Positions 44,024 through 50,269 of a stretch of DNA of 64,000 nt are shown here, one piece after another. The position numbers and the translations under genes are program-made. The notes under the pieces were generated by a model, which had not been told where the DNA came from, searched no databases, and saw nothing but the letters and a program-made list of their open reading frames with translations. The stretch is from Chloroflexota bacterium (GTDB taxonomy: Bacteria > Chloroflexota > Dehalococcoidia > Bin125): contig JAPPJZ010000054.1 in the NCBI GenBank assembly GCA_028874365.1, positions 1 to 64,000 on the forward strand, read 5' to 3'. Every line of letters begins with the position of its first letter. Position 1 is the first letter of the stretch.

Positions 44024-45319
44024 ATGACGACAGAGTCGGCGGTGGACGCGTCGGTGGAGTTGCGCGGGCAGGTTGAGGCGGCGAAGGCGGCCTCGCCGGC
44101 GCTGGGCTGGTCGTCGACCGAGCGGAAGAACGCGGTATTGCACTCGGGCGCGGCGCTGTTGCGAGAGCGCTCCGCGCAGATTGTCGCTGCGAATGAGGAG
44201 GATGTCGCCGAGGCGAGTGGTCACCTGAGCGAGGCGATGATCGACCGGCTCATGCTTACTCCTGAGCGCGTGGACGCGCTGGCGGCGTCGTTGGAAGACC
44301 TGGCCCTGCTGGAGGATCCGGTCGGTGAGACGATTGACCGGACCACGACCGATTCGGGACTGAAGATCGAGCGGGTGCGGGTGCCATTGGGCGTGATCGC
44401 GTCGGTGTACGAGTCGCGGCCGAACGTGACGATTGACATCGGGGCGATTTGCCTGAAGTCGGGCAATGCGTCGGTGCTGCGCGGCGGTCGCGAGGCGCTG
44501 CGCTCCAATCGCATCCTGGCCGATGTCTTGCGCGACGCGCTGGCCGACAACGACCTGCCCGCGGACGCGATCCAACTCGTGCGCAGCACCGATCGGGCGC
44601 TGGTCGGCGAATTGCTGGCGATGAACGATCTGATCGACCTGATGGTCCCCCGCGGTGGTCAGGCGTTGATCAACCGCGTGCGCGCCGAGGCTTCGATGGC
44701 GGTCGTCGCGGGCGGCGTCGGCATTTGCCACACGTACATTGACGCCGCCGCCGACCTCGAGATGGCGCTGGCGGTCGTGGACAACGCCAAGCGACGCCGG
44801 GTGAGCATCTGCAATGCGCTGGACGTGATGCTGGTCCACGAAGCGGTCGCGCCGCAGTTTCTGTCGGAGCTGGGTCGGCGCTGGGCGGGCGATGGTCCGA
44901 CGCCGGTGGAGTTACGCGCCGACGATCGGGCTCGCGCGTTATTGTCCGAGACTTCGGCGAACGTGCACCCGGCCGGTCCGGATGACTTCGACACCGAGTT
45001 CTTATCGTTGACGGCCGCCGTCGGCGTGGTTAGCGATGCCGATGCGGCGCTGGCGCATATCGCCGAGCACGGCAGCGGGCATTCGGAGGCGGTGATCACG
45101 GCCGACGAGGCGCTCGGCCAACGCTTCCTGCGGGAGGTCGATGCGGCGGCTGTCTACGTGAACGCCTCGACGCAGTTCACCGACGGCGGGCAGTTCGGTC
45201 TGGGCGCGGAGGTCGGGATTTCGACGGGGAAACTACACGCTCGCGGACCGATGGGTCTGCGCGAGCTGACCTCGTACAAGTGGGTGATTCGCGGCGACGG
45301 GCACATCCGTCCCGTCTGA
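44024..45319 (+). CDS. proA: gamma-glutamyl phosphate reductase
   Basis: This 431-residue NADPH-dependent enzyme makes glutamate-5-semialdehyde in proline synthesis. Motifs include PLGVIASVYESRPNVTIDIGAICLKSGNASVLRGGREA, PRGGQALINRV, the catalytic cysteine in KRRRVSICNALDVMLVHE, and VYVNASTQFTDGGQFGLGAEVGISTGKLHARGPMG. proB is not in the window. A short gene for an unknown protein precedes it. Confidence 0.96.
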   Translation: MTTESAVDASVELRGQVEAAKAASPALGWSSTERKNAVLHSGAALLRERSAQIVAANEEDVAEASGHLSEAMIDRLMLTPERVDALAASLEDLALLEDPVGETIDRTTTDSGLKIERVRVPLGVIASVYESRPNVTIDIGAICLKSGNASVLRGGREALRSNRILADVLRDALADNDLPADAIQLVRSTDRALVGELLAMNDLIDLMVPRGGQALINRVRAEASMAVVAGGVGICHTYIDAAADLEMALAVVDNAKRRRVSICNALDVMLVHEAVAPQFLSELGRRWAGDGPTPVELRADDRARALLSETSANVHPAGPDDFDTEFLSLTAAVGVVSDADAALAHIAEHGSGHSEAVITADEALGQRFLREVDAAAVYVNASTQFTDGGQFGLGAEVGISTGKLHARGPMGLRELTSYKWVIRGDGHIRPV

Positions 45320-45344: not shown

Positions 45345-46334
45345 ATGTCCAAGAGACCGATCCCGACCGTCGCCGGCGCCGCCATGCGCGCGGCTGCGAC
45401 GGAGTTCGTCAACAGCCTGAACGTCGAGCAGCGCGCCACGACGATCTACGACTACATGGATGGCGAGCGCATCTTCTGGTACTACCCACCGACCAATCGT
45501 CACGGCCTGGCGTTGCGCGACATGACCGAGTCGCAGCGCGGTCTCGCGATGAAGCTGATGGAGGCCGGCCTGAGCGAGCGCGCCTACGAGCAGGCCGTCG
45601 GGATCATCGACCTGGAGATCATCCTCGGCGAGATCGAGGTCGGCGCGGGAATCAAGACGTTCAAGCGCGACCCTGAGCTCTACTACTGGACGATCTTCGG
45701 CGACCCGACAAGCGACGAGCTTCCCTGGGGCTGGCGGGTGGAGGGGCACCACATCTCGCTTAACTTCTCGCTGTGGGGCGACGGTCTGCTGTCGCTGACT
45801 CCGTTCTTCTTCGGCACCAATCCGGCCGAGGTGCGCAAGGGTCCGCAGGCGGGTCTACGCATCCTCGACCAGCGCGAGGACCTCGCGTTCGATCTGATGG
45901 CGTCGCTGGACGGCGAGCAAGCCGAACGAGCGGTGATCTATCCGGAAGCTCCGTGGGACATCCTGACCTTCAACGCCTCACGGGCGGTGATGCCGGCCTA
46001 TGAGGGGTTGGCGGCTTCTGCGATGGACGACGATCAGTGGGCGGTGCTGGATCGGCTGATCAACATCTACGTCGATCAGGCGCCGAGGGATCTCGCCGAC
46101 GATCGCCGCGCCCGAATCGCGGCGGCCGGACGCGAAGGGATGCACTTTGCCTGGGCCGGTCCCGTCCAGAACGGGGAGCCGCATTACTATCGGATCCACG
46201 GCGGGAACTTCCTCGTGGAATTCGACAACCGCCAGAACGGGGCCAACCATATCCATTGCGTCTGGCGGGATGTCGAGAACGACTTCGCCAACGATGTCCT
46301 GGGCGAGCACCTCGTCCTCTATCACGTGCTGTAA
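45345..46334 (+). CDS. DUF3500 family protein
   Basis: This 329-residue protein matches the DUF3500 pattern: FVNSLNVEQRATTIYDYMDGERIFWYYPP, RHGLALRDMTESQRGLAMKLM, GWRVEGHHISLNFSLWGD and the C-terminal HFAWAGPVQNGEPHYYRIHGGNFLVEFDNRQNGANHIHCVWRD. The conserved histidines (GHH, PHYYRIH, NHIH) suggest metal binding, but no activity is established. It starts 25 bases after proA and is followed by a run of overlapping small genes. Confidence 0.85.
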   Translation: MSKRPIPTVAGAAMRAAATEFVNSLNVEQRATTIYDYMDGERIFWYYPPTNRHGLALRDMTESQRGLAMKLMEAGLSERAYEQAVGIIDLEIILGEIEVGAGIKTFKRDPELYYWTIFGDPTSDELPWGWRVEGHHISLNFSLWGDGLLSLTPFFFGTNPAEVRKGPQAGLRILDQREDLAFDLMASLDGEQAERAVIYPEAPWDILTFNASRAVMPAYEGLAASAMDDDQWAVLDRLINIYVDQAPRDLADDRRARIAAAGREGMHFAWAGPVQNGEPHYYRIHGGNFLVEFDNRQNGANHIHCVWRDVENDFANDVLGEHLVLYHVL

Positions 46335-46358: not shown

Positions 46359-46649
46359 ATGTTTCACTACGAACGCGAAAGCCGTACGGCGCAGTCCGAA
46401 TGCTACGTCGTGGAGAACGAAGCGGGCTCGCGGGGCCGCGTCGATCTGCACTTCGCCGCGCCGTTGGTCTATGCCACCCTCTGCGTGCCGGAATCGTGGG
46501 CGGAAGAGGACATCCAGGACGTGATTGCCGATGTTGATGACCGCTGGGCGCAGACGGCCGATCCATTGCGCGATGACCTGATCGTCACCGTCTGGCGTGG
46601 CCAGGAAGTGGGCGTCTATTCACAGGAAGACGGAGCGGCCGATGACTGA
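46359..46649 (+). CDS. small unknown protein, first gene of a five-gene overlapping set
   Basis: This 96-residue acidic protein, MFHYERESRTAQSECY..., has a beta-rich first half (GRVDLHFAAPLVYATLCVPES) and a second half with ADVDDRWAQTADPLRDDLIVTVWRGQEVG. I recognise no family. Its stop overlaps the next gene by eight bases. It follows the DUF3500 gene by 24 bases. Confidence 0.55.
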   Translation: MFHYERESRTAQSECYVVENEAGSRGRVDLHFAAPLVYATLCVPESWAEEDIQDVIADVDDRWAQTADPLRDDLIVTVWRGQEVGVYSQEDGAADD

Positions 46650-47070
46650 CGAAGACGTCATGGTTGAGGACCAGCAGGGCGAGGGCGAAGCGGCCGACGC
46701 ACTACAGATGCTGTTCGACGGGCACGTCGATGTGATGCTGCCGCCGGAGGAGATCGAGGAGTTCCACGATTTCATCCGCGAAGAGGCGTTGATGCGCAGG
46801 CGCTTCGCGGTCTCGTTCCGGCTCGAATGCCGCTGTCTGGCCTGGATCGGCTACTCGCTGGCCAACATCGTGACGCACGAGGACGGGATCGAGTTCAAGG
46901 CCAACCCGATGCAGACCTACGTCCCGGACCATGAGCCGGATGTCGAGCATCCCGAGGGTGCCACCGAGGATCCGCCGGAGCAGTTTCTCGACTGGCCGAT
47001 CTGGCCGCTGGAGATCTACCAGGACGAGCTCGAGGAAGAAGAAGAGGACACGGAAGAGGATGGCGAGTGA
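46642..47070 (+). CDS. acidic protein of unknown function
   Basis: This 142-residue protein has an acidic start, a helical HVDVMLPPEEIEEFHDFIREEALMRRRFAVSF segment, and RLECRCLAWIGYSLANIVTH with two cysteines spaced CxC. A Glu/Asp tail (ELEEEEEDTEEDGE) closes it. No family was recognised. ATG 46642 overlaps the upstream gene by eight bases, and the stop overlaps the HAD gene (GTGA). Confidence 0.55.
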   Translation: MTDEDVMVEDQQGEGEAADALQMLFDGHVDVMLPPEEIEEFHDFIREEALMRRRFAVSFRLECRCLAWIGYSLANIVTHEDGIEFKANPMQTYVPDHEPDVEHPEGATEDPPEQFLDWPIWPLEIYQDELEEEEEDTEEDGE

Positions 47071-47795
47071 GTGGGCCAAATGGGCGGTTCGCAGCGGTCT
47101 TCTTTGACCTGGACGGAACGCTGGTCAGCGAACGCACGGGAGTCAGAGAAGCGCGCACGGCGATTGGTATCCGCCTGAACGAGCTCGGTCTCTACCACAA
47201 GCCAGCGTCGGCGTTCGCCGACACGGTCGAGATGGTGATCGGGGGGATCCTCGAGGACAACGACTGGCAGTGGCCGCTGTGGTTGCACTCGGAGGAGTGG
47301 CTGAGACGGACGCTGGCGGCGGCCGAGGTGACCGTCAGCGAGGATGAGTTTCGCGAGCTGAACCAGGTCTACCGAGATGAGCGGAGTGATCGGGCGGAAG
47401 CAATCCAAGGTTGGCCGGAGGCCCTGGCGGCCGCGCGCAGGCATGGTCCGATCGGGCTGATTACCAACTTCAACGACGGTCCGATGCAGCGGGAGAAGAT
47501 TCGCGGCGCAGGTTTAGCGGGTCAGTTCGACGGCGTCTACATCTCGGGCGAAGTCGGGGTCTGGAAGCCGGAGCGCGGCATCTTTGAGCATGCCGCCAAC
47601 GATCTGGGCGTGGATCCTCGCGAGTGCGTGCATATCGGCAACAACATCCAGTCGGACGTCGAGGGCGCGATCGGTGCCGGGATGATGGCGGTGCTGGTGG
47701 AGGAGGATGATCGGCCGCGGCCGGCGAGCCTCGATAGTGAGGTGGTCTGGTGCGAGGATTTGCAGGGAGTCGCCGAGTGGCTAAGCGGTGGCTGA
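47067..47795 (+). CDS. HAD-superfamily hydrolase
   Basis: This 242-residue phosphatase-like protein has motif I FFDLDGTLVSERTG, motif II LITNFND, the lysine in VGVWKPERGIFEHAA, and motif IV HIGNNIQSDVEGAIGAGM. The helical cap between motifs I and II fits type I HAD enzymes acting on small phosphorylated molecules. The second aspartate of motif IV is reduced to NNIQSD, as in some relatives. It overlaps both neighbours, so it belongs to the coupled five-gene set. Confidence 0.9.
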   Translation: MSGPNGRFAAVFFDLDGTLVSERTGVREARTAIGIRLNELGLYHKPASAFADTVEMVIGGILEDNDWQWPLWLHSEEWLRRTLAAAEVTVSEDEFRELNQVYRDERSDRAEAIQGWPEALAAARRHGPIGLITNFNDGPMQREKIRGAGLAGQFDGVYISGEVGVWKPERGIFEHAANDLGVDPRECVHIGNNIQSDVEGAIGAGMMAVLVEEDDRPRPASLDSEVVWCEDLQGVAEWLSGG

Positions 47796-48129
47796 GGAGC
47801 GGCCGAGGCCAGCGGGGAAGCTAACGATCAGCCCGAGTGGCCTTCTCAAGATCGGCGAGCGCGGGTATGACCTCGACGATGCACAAGCTGTGCACGATCG
47901 AAACCCGATCTGGATCTGGCAGGACGAGCGAATCCGCCGAGACGACCTGGGGCGCTGGAACATTCGACCGGCGCGATGGAGATTGATTGGGCGTGGCCCA
48001 GGCGGCGTGATCCTGTCGGTGGTGATTGAGCTCCCTAGCGCGGATGGCAGGTCCGAAGTGGTCAGCGTCTTCGAAGCGAGTCCAGCGGACAAAAGTCGGT
48101 ACGCTGACTGGATAAGGAGGAGGCAATGA
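47788..48129 (+). CDS. BrnT-like putative toxin
   Basis: This 113-residue protein has a BrnT-type order: GERGYDLDDAQAVHDRNPIWIW (helix and loop), RWRLIGRGPGGVILSVVIELP (central strands) and VVSVFEASPADKSRYADWIRRR (last strand and helix). BrnT toxins are RNase-like growth inhibitors encoded directly before their antitoxin, the same order as here. Similarity is by eye and distant, so the toxin function is a hypothesis. The start is GTG 47788, overlapping the HAD gene by eight bases. Confidence 0.5.
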   Translation: MAEERPRPAGKLTISPSGLLKIGERGYDLDDAQAVHDRNPIWIWQDERIRRDDLGRWNIRPARWRLIGRGPGGVILSVVIELPSADGRSEVVSVFEASPADKSRYADWIRRRQ

Positions 48130-48440
48130 CGGATTCGCGGCAGACCTGGCTGGAGTCACTGGATCCGCGTGTGCGTGCCGAGGTGGAGGCGGAGATTGCC
48201 GACTACGAAGATCCCGAGAATGCGGAGTACGTGGAAGACGACGACTGGGCGCCGCCCAAGGGGGGCGGGATGGGGTTAACGGTTGATTTCAGCAGCGAGG
48301 AGATCACAACGCTGAGCCAGGCGTTTGGCGCGTCGCTCGAAATGTTCAAGATTATGCATGATGCCTTGATGGCGCGCGCCCACGAGGAATTGCGGGAGCG
48401 AGAGGAGTCGGACTCCGACTCCCTCACAGCGGCGGACTGA
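48126..48440 (+). CDS. putative antitoxin partner of the BrnT-like protein
   Basis: This 104-residue protein has an acidic, flexible first half (IADYEDPENAEYVEDDDWAPP). The second half has a ribbon-helix-helix-like pattern: a short strand GLTVDFSS, then helices EEITTLSQAFGASLEMFKIMHDALMARAHEELRERE. That is the layout of antitoxins that bind toxin with one part and DNA with the other. ATG 48126 overlaps the upstream stop (ATGA). The role is inferred mainly from the neighbour. Confidence 0.45.
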   Translation: MTDSRQTWLESLDPRVRAEVEAEIADYEDPENAEYVEDDDWAPPKGGGMGLTVDFSSEEITTLSQAFGASLEMFKIMHDALMARAHEELREREESDSDSLTAAD

Positions 48441-48458: not shown

Positions 48459-49412
48459 TCACTTCCGCGCGATTGCTCGCTTCGCCGCCTTGACCACCGA
48501 CTCGGCCGTCAGTCCGTACTCGTCGAGCAGTTCCTGCCAAGGCCCCGACTGGCCGAAGGTGTCGTTGATTCCGACCTGTTCCATTGGCACGGGGCAGTGC
48601 AGTGCCAGCGTGCGCGCGACAGCGGATCCGAGGCCGCCGATCACGTTGTGTTCCTCGGCGCAGACGATCGCGCCGGTCTGTTCGGCGGCGCGAATCACTT
48701 CCGGCGCATCGAGCGGCTTAATGGTGGCCATGTTGAGGACTCGAGCGCCGATGCCGTCTTGCGCGAGGGCATCGGCGGCGCGAAGTGTCGGTCCGACCAT
48801 CAGACCGCAGGCAATCAGCGTGACGTCGCTGCCGTCGCGCAGCTGGTGGGCTTTGCCTAGCTGGAACGACGCGCCGTCGGTGTACACGACTGGCAGCTTG
48901 GGGCGTCCGAGGCGGATGTACCACGGCTCGTCGTCTTCGGCTGCACGGCAGATCATGGCGTCAGCCTCGACCGAGTCGCAGGGAACGACCACGTTCATGC
49001 CGGGCAGCGATGTCATCAGGGCCAGATCCTCGATCGCCTGGGCGGAGGCGCCGTCTTCGCCGACGGAGATGCCGCCGTGCGAGGCGATCAGCTTGACGTT
49101 CATGCGTTGTTGTGCGATCTGGACGCGGATCTGGTCGAAGCAGTGGCCGGGCATGAAGACGGCGAAGGAGGCGGCGTAGACGGTCTTGCCGGTCGAGGCG
49201 AGCCCGGCGGCAATGCTGATCATGTTGGCCTCGGCCGCGCCGACGGTGAACCAGCGGTCGGGGAACGAGGCTGCGAGCTTGTTGCCGCCGGTTGAGGCGG
49301 AGAGGTCGGCGTCGAGCGCGACGATGTCGTGGCCGGCCTCGGCCAACTTGACCAGGGCCGGACCGTAGGCTTCGCGGGTGGCGGCAGGGGCAGGTGTGGC
49401 AGTGGTTGTCAC
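48459..49412 (-). CDS. transketolase, C-terminal subunit
   Basis: This 317-residue protein holds the pyrimidine-binding and C-terminal domains: PALVKLAEAGHDIVALDADLSAST, FTVGAAEANMISIAAGLASTGKTVYAASFAVF, MNVKLIASHGGISVGEDGASAQAIEDLALM, and the C-terminal GARVLNMATIKPLDAPEVIRAA. It forms one enzyme with the N-terminal subunit. The start, GTG 49412, overlaps the N-subunit stop (GTGA), which keeps the two chains in balance. Confidence 0.93.
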   Translation of the reverse strand: MTTTATPAPAATREAYGPALVKLAEAGHDIVALDADLSASTGGNKLAASFPDRWFTVGAAEANMISIAAGLASTGKTVYAASFAVFMPGHCFDQIRVQIAQQRMNVKLIASHGGISVGEDGASAQAIEDLALMTSLPGMNVVVPCDSVEADAMICRAAEDDEPWYIRLGRPKLPVVYTDGASFQLGKAHQLRDGSDVTLIACGLMVGPTLRAADALAQDGIGARVLNMATIKPLDAPEVIRAAEQTGAIVCAEEHNVIGGLGSAVARTLALHCPVPMEQVGINDTFGQSGPWQELLDEYGLTAESVVKAAKRAIARK

Positions 49413-50269
49413 GAAAGCCCCGCCTCGATCTCTTCGAGCGCCTGGGCGAGTTGCTCGTCCGACGGACCCTTGCCGTGCCAGCCGGCCGGGTTTTCGGCCA
49501 TGAACGAGACGCCGCGTCCCTTGACGGTTTCGCAGATGACCACCTGCGGAGCGTCGGTTCGTGCTCGCGCAATCAGCAGCGCGTCCCGCACGGCCTCGAC
49601 ATCGTGGCCGTCGACGTGCTGAACACCCCAGCCAAAGGCGGTCCATTTGTCGCCGACCGGGTCGATGCGCATGATCTCGTCGCCGGGTCCGTCATTTTGG
49701 AAGTGATTGCGGTCGAGAACGGCGGTGATCCGGTGCAGGCCGAAGTGCGAAGCGGACATGATGGCTTCCCAGTTCTGGCCTTCGTTCAACTCGCCGTCGC
49801 CGACGACGACGAAGATCTGGCCTTCGTCAGCGGGGAAGCCGTTGAGGTGGTGGCCGAGCGCCACGCCGACCGCGAAGGAGAGTCCCATGCCCAGCGCGCC
49901 GCCCGACATCTCGACGCCCGGAGGTTTGTTGCGGACGACGTGCCCTTGCAGCTCAGTGCCCAACGAGCGAAATGAGGGGATGAGCTCGGTGCTGAAGTAG
50001 CCGGCCTCGGCGAGGGTCGCGTAGACGACCGGCGTGGCGTGGCCCTTGCTCAGGATGACGCGGTCTCGGCGCTCCCACAGTGGGTCGGCCGGGTCGTGCC
50101 GTACGACGCCACCGAAGTAGAGCGCGGCGAAGATCTCGGTGGCTGAAAGTGATCCGCCGGGATGGCCCGATTGGGCGGCGTGCGTCATCTCCACGATGTG
50201 TCGTCGAATCCGCTTGCAGACATCGAGCAGAGCTTCGGTGTCTGCGGCGGGCGCGGCTGATGTGGTCAT
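49409..50269 (-). CDS. transketolase, N-terminal (thiamine diphosphate-binding) subunit
   Basis: This 286-residue protein has CKRIRRHIVEMTHAAQSGHPGGSLSATEIFAALYF, RDRVILSKGHATPVVYATLAEAGYF, GALGMGLSFAVGVALG and the cofactor/metal motif VVGDGELNEGQNWEAIMSA. Split transketolases are common in archaea and several bacterial phyla. It works in the non-oxidative pentose phosphate pathway. Start ATG 50269 is divergent from thpR. Confidence 0.94.
   Translation of the reverse strand: MTTSAAPAADTEALLDVCKRIRRHIVEMTHAAQSGHPGGSLSATEIFAALYFGGVVRHDPADPLWERRDRVILSKGHATPVVYATLAEAGYFSTELIPSFRSLGTELQGHVVRNKPPGVEMSGGALGMGLSFAVGVALGHHLNGFPADEGQIFVVVGDGELNEGQNWEAIMSASHFGLHRITAVLDRNHFQNDGPGDEIMRIDPVGDKWTAFGWGVQHVDGHDVEAVRDALLIARARTDAPQVVICETVKGRGVSFMAENPAGWHGKGPSDEQLAQALEEIEAGLS

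Follow-up and report, generated by a model that had tools for sequence, protein, structure and literature searches.

A diverged, exchangeable BrnTA-like cassette embedded behind a conserved operon in Chloroflexota

The run of five overlapping genes at positions 46,359 to 48,440 of the window (the whole 64,000-nucleotide stretch of Chloroflexota DNA analysed here) is a composite, made up of a conserved housekeeping-type trio and a separate two-gene cassette, T-A, and not a single functional module. The cassette is a diverged, operon-embedded and exchangeable relative of BrnT-BrnA. We consider it fairly probable that T-A is a BrnT/BrnA-like toxin-antitoxin cassette, of putative toxicity, that uses a host operon for its expression. 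The window belongs to contig C68, part of a 3.1-Mb bin; all genomes in the comparison are metagenome bins, and the samples presumably came from sponges, to judge by the isolate labels. The genes concerned are the following:

44024..45319, + strand: gene that we take to be proA from general knowledge of its sequence (glutamate-5-semialdehyde dehydrogenase), first of the conserved core and upstream of orf1 in every locus of family f1 examined
45345..46334, + strand: DUF3500 gene (PF12006, E 3.1e-87), a variable passenger upstream
46359..46649, + strand: orf1, function-orphan protein of 96 aa, single-copy across much of Chloroflexota
46642..47070, + strand: orf2, function-orphan protein of 142 aa from the ATG at 46642, restricted to family f1
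47067..47795, + strand: HAD-superfamily hydrolase of subfamily IA type, 242 aa, GTG start (PF00702, TIGR01549)
47788..48129, + strand: T, BrnT-like protein of 113 aa with a BECR-type fold (predicted fold, profile-profile match), GTG start
48126..48440, + strand: A, putative antitoxin of 104 aa directly following T, with N-terminal helices, an acidic linker, an RHH-like C-terminus and an AAD tail
48459..49646, - strand: reading frame holding a convergent gene, presumably for a transketolase-like C-terminal subunit and probably starting near 49410; right border of the T-A slot, from the gap sizes measured from the HAD stop

The five reading frames lie where the initial annotation had put them and overlap by 8 (orf1/orf2), 4 (orf2/HAD), 8 (HAD/T) and 4 (T/A) bases; the DUF3500 gene that it reported upstream is also real, ending at 46334, 24 bases before orf1. 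Its assignment of the third gene to the HAD superfamily stands (PF00702, 83.4 bits, E 3.5e-23; TIGR01549, 42 bits; over the cut-offs of Pfam and NCBIfam), and neither collection had a significant match for orf1, orf2, T or A. Evidently these genes are not chance reading frames, since every genome of the genus has orf1 and orf2 at 74-99% identity, the overlaps recur, and T and A are kept open under purifying selection.

Fold, residues and relatives of T and A

The predicted structure of T (AF2, pLDDT 91.5, pTM 0.80) is closest to the Salmonella BrnT-type toxin 7vd7_A (Z 11.8, rmsd 2.4 over 90 residues), followed by Brucella BrnT 3u97 (Z 8.4, rmsd 2.2 over 75 residues); the next matches are RelE-type toxins at Z 5.0 and below. 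A BrnT fold, whose absence from structure prediction the initial annotation would have held against its own BrnT-like reading of T, was therefore found, and that reading is borne out by fold, gene order and remote homology. Among Pfam models, PF04365 (BrnT) is the one matched most often by the T family, with 14 of its 26 members and a best E of 2.5e-5; T of the window has no match to it, and its relatives in the slot behind the HAD gene match only under the curated cut-off of 34.5 bits. In whole-genome scans the T loci come up under the BrnT model, and hhalign of the T family against BrnT proteins from its own phylum reaches a probability of 92.7 (E 4.3e-7). Judged by sequence and model, T has the fold and descent of BrnT, yet we do not file it as BrnT.

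The reason for this caution lies in the residues. Eight positions of BrnT are reported to be required for RNase activity or toxicity, five in one study (D6, E7, K9, R41 and E78; PMC5086665) and three more in another (K16, H17 and R72; PMC13284704). The profile alignment places I14, S15, S17, R63 and D101 of T at the former and E24, R25 and F95 at the latter, so that one of the eight is kept (R41 as R63, invariant in the T family), E78 is conservatively replaced by Asp, and six are lost; RNase activity of T is thus not to be assumed. H17 of BrnT is retained by 15 of 17 T paralogs outside the slot and by one of nine inside it. The conserved set of the T family is otherwise a different one, consisting, besides R63, of W64, G68-R69-G70, P83, Y105 and R5/R7. 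Together with the missing RNase residues it lends some weight to a variant of our main explanation in which T is a ParE-like or other non-nucleolytic BECR-fold inhibitor with a target chemistry unlike that of BrnT, as ParE toxins are BECR-fold proteins that lack RNase residues (PMC11980606); we hold this variant to be possible, if somewhat unlikely, because the resemblance to ParE is not specific among the fold matches listed and because the counterpart of BrnT R41 is invariant.

The pair shares with BrnT-BrnA of Brucella abortus (PF04365; 3u97) the toxin fold, the toxin-first order, a putatively RHH-like C-terminus of the antitoxin and the arginine just discussed; it differs in that T falls under the Pfam cut-off and does not keep D6, E7, K9, K16, H17 and R72, that no intergenic space is left in which T-A could have its own promoter, and that A carries its C-terminal AAD tail. 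The Salmonella complex 7vd7, although the best structural match, is a weak sequence-profile match, and its toxin carries the BrnT motifs WD..K, KHG and RIISAR that T lacks. In RelS-RelI of Mycobacterium tuberculosis (Rv2663-Rv2664) a sequence-divergent BrnT-like toxin likewise precedes a non-standard antitoxin, the N-terminal helix of which blocks RelS (PMC13284704). RelS, however, conserves K9, H10 and R69 (equivalent to K16, H17 and R72 of BrnT) for the cleavage of 16S rRNA (PMC13284704), where T has E24, R25 and F95, and RelI is HTH/ClpC2-like rather than RHH-like. No toxicity-tested member of exactly the T family was found in the literature searched. TGW-type relatives of BrnT occur in other Chloroflexota (L131, L139 and L145): they share a C-terminal TGW motif with T and are followed by RHH_1-type partners, but keep the BrnT-like N-terminal EWEWD motif and an HG motif and are located outside this operon. 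The combination of the BrnT-like N-terminal motif with TGW in these distant relatives makes a stepwise loss of the former plausible.

At every T-A locus A stands directly behind T, in most with its start at -3 of the T stop, and this order together with remote homology upholds the antitoxin-like reading of A in the initial annotation. The model of A (mean pLDDT 65.7) shows two confident helices at residues ~1-30 and is of low confidence elsewhere, including a helix-helix C-terminus. A of the window matches no Pfam family; the C-terminus of A gives a modest hhalign match (E 2.2e-5, probability 77) to the RHH antitoxins of distant T-like pairs, which match RHH_1. Both RHH helices are missing from A of two species (L053 and L056), in which the N-terminus and the tail are retained. 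A match of A to ZorA3 (E 0.005, 13.6 bits) was taken as chance.

Ten of the 12 slot A proteins end in AAD and most A paralogs in [AV]D, compared with none of 135 long reading frames of the same contigs. This ending (48426-48440 in the window; homologs in L014-L030 and L051-L066) outlives the deletion of the RHH part. One may guess that it is a degradation signal. A copy of the tmRNA tag was considered and rejected, the tag of this genome being GESRELALAA, with no match to AAD.

Occupancy of the slot and exchange of its contents

The slot was defined as the sequence from the stop codon of HAD to the stop of the convergent transketolase gene and was compared in 15 species of the genus, the window included. 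It is filled with T-A in nine (gap of 532-670 bases) and empty in six, five of which have 5-33 bases left and one (L060, 7173-7251) a stretch of 79 bases. As this stretch starts like a T gene (GCGATGCGCAGG) and ends like an A gene, it is read as the scar of one internal deletion. Occupancy differs between sister species of the core tree (L052/L054, L055/L056, L057/L058 and L059/L060, the pairings L055/L056 and L057/L058 having low support). A second genus (L066) has a tandem array T-A, A, T-A. L058 (7216-7556) has a T frame broken by a frameshift and an A that is still open, either by real decay or by assembly error; in metagenome bins this frameshift and the single losses could include such errors. 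Intact T without A was not seen in the slot. From these sequences it would appear that the cassette is lost as a whole.

It also moves. The window and L051 form a sister pair in the core tree (support 100), and their five core genes differ by dS of 0.30-0.77, whereas T and A reach 2.19 and 1.93. At fourfold sites the difference is 0.65 (0.53-0.77) for T and A together as against 0.37 (0.33-0.41) for the core. T of the window is 81% identical to that of L058 (79 comparable residues) and 61% to that of L051, and A is 74% and 64% identical, respectively. For T and A combined, the tree that keeps the window with L051 is rejected by the AU test (p-AU 0.0007); the single-gene tests are weak (p 0.038 for T, 0.056 for A). 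Between L063 and L064, a close pair, dS shows no excess in T-A, the values for T, A and HAD being alike, which argues that the slot is neither a mutational hot spot nor simply fast-mutating. The silent-site divergence and the conflict with the core tree thus indicate that T-A alleles have been exchanged between species as a pair; the direction of this exchange is something that we infer. Both proteins have dN/dS of about 0.1-0.2 and are therefore constrained, under purifying selection.

These results bear on a further possibility, namely that T-A was once a toxin-antitoxin pair, is no longer toxic, and at the tail of the operon either acts as a regulator or structural partner or is on its way out. 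The replacement of six BrnT residues in T, the loss of the DNA-binding part from two versions of A, the frameshifted T of L058 and the absence of the pair from six congeners are all as such decay would leave them. We nevertheless think it unlikely, because purifying selection still acts on T and A, because no intact T that has lost its A was seen in the slot, and because exchange of alleles as a pair is what is expected of active toxin-antitoxin modules.

The conserved core and T-A pairs at other sites

The genes orf1, orf2 and HAD follow proA in all 20 searched genomes of family f1, and the order proA-(DUF3500)-orf1-orf2-HAD is constant throughout the family; DUF3500 is present between proA and orf1 in most congeners and was not found in L060, L063, L064 and L067. 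Single copies of orf2 occur in each of the 20 f1 genomes and in none of the 41 other genomes of the class. The distribution of orf1 is wider: 41 of 61 relatives carry it once each, and so do 103 of the 301 Chloroflexota genomes sampled, about a third. The adjacency of proA and orf1 extends to several other families of the class; outside the class the neighbours of orf1 (polyprenyl synthetase, solute-binding protein and others) include no constant partner. The orf1 family, of about 100 aa, single-copy and lacking a Pfam model, may be a phylum-level protein of unassigned role. The genes proA, often DUF3500, orf1, orf2 and HAD form a conserved operon, probably with a metabolic role.

Up to five T matches were found per genome, and in the same genomes T-A pairs lie at other places devoid of HAD, orf1 or orf2: just behind ispG (GcpE) in different species (L021, L024, L026, L029 and L030), just behind a gene resembling F420H2-dependent quinone reductases (L014-L017, L020, L022 and L025), and once behind an isocitrate lyase gene (L013). 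The second T-A pair of the window genome belongs to these (L025; G000 contig C18, 81692-81964), being located downstream of the F420H2-dependent reductase-like gene. In L012 (G005 contig C15, 638076-641321) the A paralog after T is fused to an Mrr_cat/NA-iREase1 nuclease domain (225 aa), a hint of a link to restriction or defence.

The initial annotation took the five genes to be made as a unit, which the overlaps fit but which applies only to the species carrying T-A; similarly the five-gene order, which it proposed to check for conservation, proved constant for proA-orf1-orf2-HAD throughout the family, with T-A present in only nine of 15 species of the genus. Its further suggestion that all five genes could form a single stress or defence module, with the toxin-antitoxin pair acting alongside the HAD phosphatase and the orf1 and orf2 proteins, is not supported and is highly improbable in spite of the four overlaps and of an order shared by nine species and a second genus, because the core is complete without T-A in six of 15 congeners, orf1 is found across the phylum on its own, T-A pairs stand behind unrelated genes, and PADLOC has no match for orf1, orf2, HAD or T.

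Proposed working of the cassette

We return to the reading of T-A as a toxin-antitoxin cassette that relies on its host operon. There is no intergenic space before T; this and the overlaps suggest that T-A would form the last part of the host operon's transcript. In simple scans no sigma-70-like site came up, and the inverted repeats found were weak. A would cover T, presumably a small inhibitor with the BrnT fold, with its N-terminal helices and so keep it silent, while the RHH-like C-terminus of A would repress transcription in the versions that keep this part. Self-repression would be dispensable wherever the host operon drives expression, and the RHH part would be of consequence only in modules left to regulate themselves. 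The two species that have lost the RHH helices and kept T, the N-terminus of A and the tail fit neutralisation by the N-terminus. Finally, the cassette is lost whole and swapped between species as a pair.

A broader and rather doubtful proposal is that a BrnT-fold toxin family of sponge-associated Chloroflexota has traded the BrnT catalytic set for another conserved surface and resides in swappable cassettes attached to housekeeping operons (those of HAD, ispG, isocitrate lyase and the F420H2 reductase) at their 3' ends; transcription from the host would there take the place of self-repression, leaving the antitoxins free to drop their DNA-binding domain and still keep the AAD degradation tail.

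A conserved operon of unassigned role can now be told apart from a mobile passenger that resembled part of it. Within one genus the filled, swapped, RHH-less, frameshifted, scarred and empty slots make up a natural series, in which a toxin-antitoxin pair can be watched as it is lost from, or exchanged within, the housekeeping operon that carries it. If T should be toxic without the catalytic residues of BrnT, the BrnT fold would have a second mode of action.
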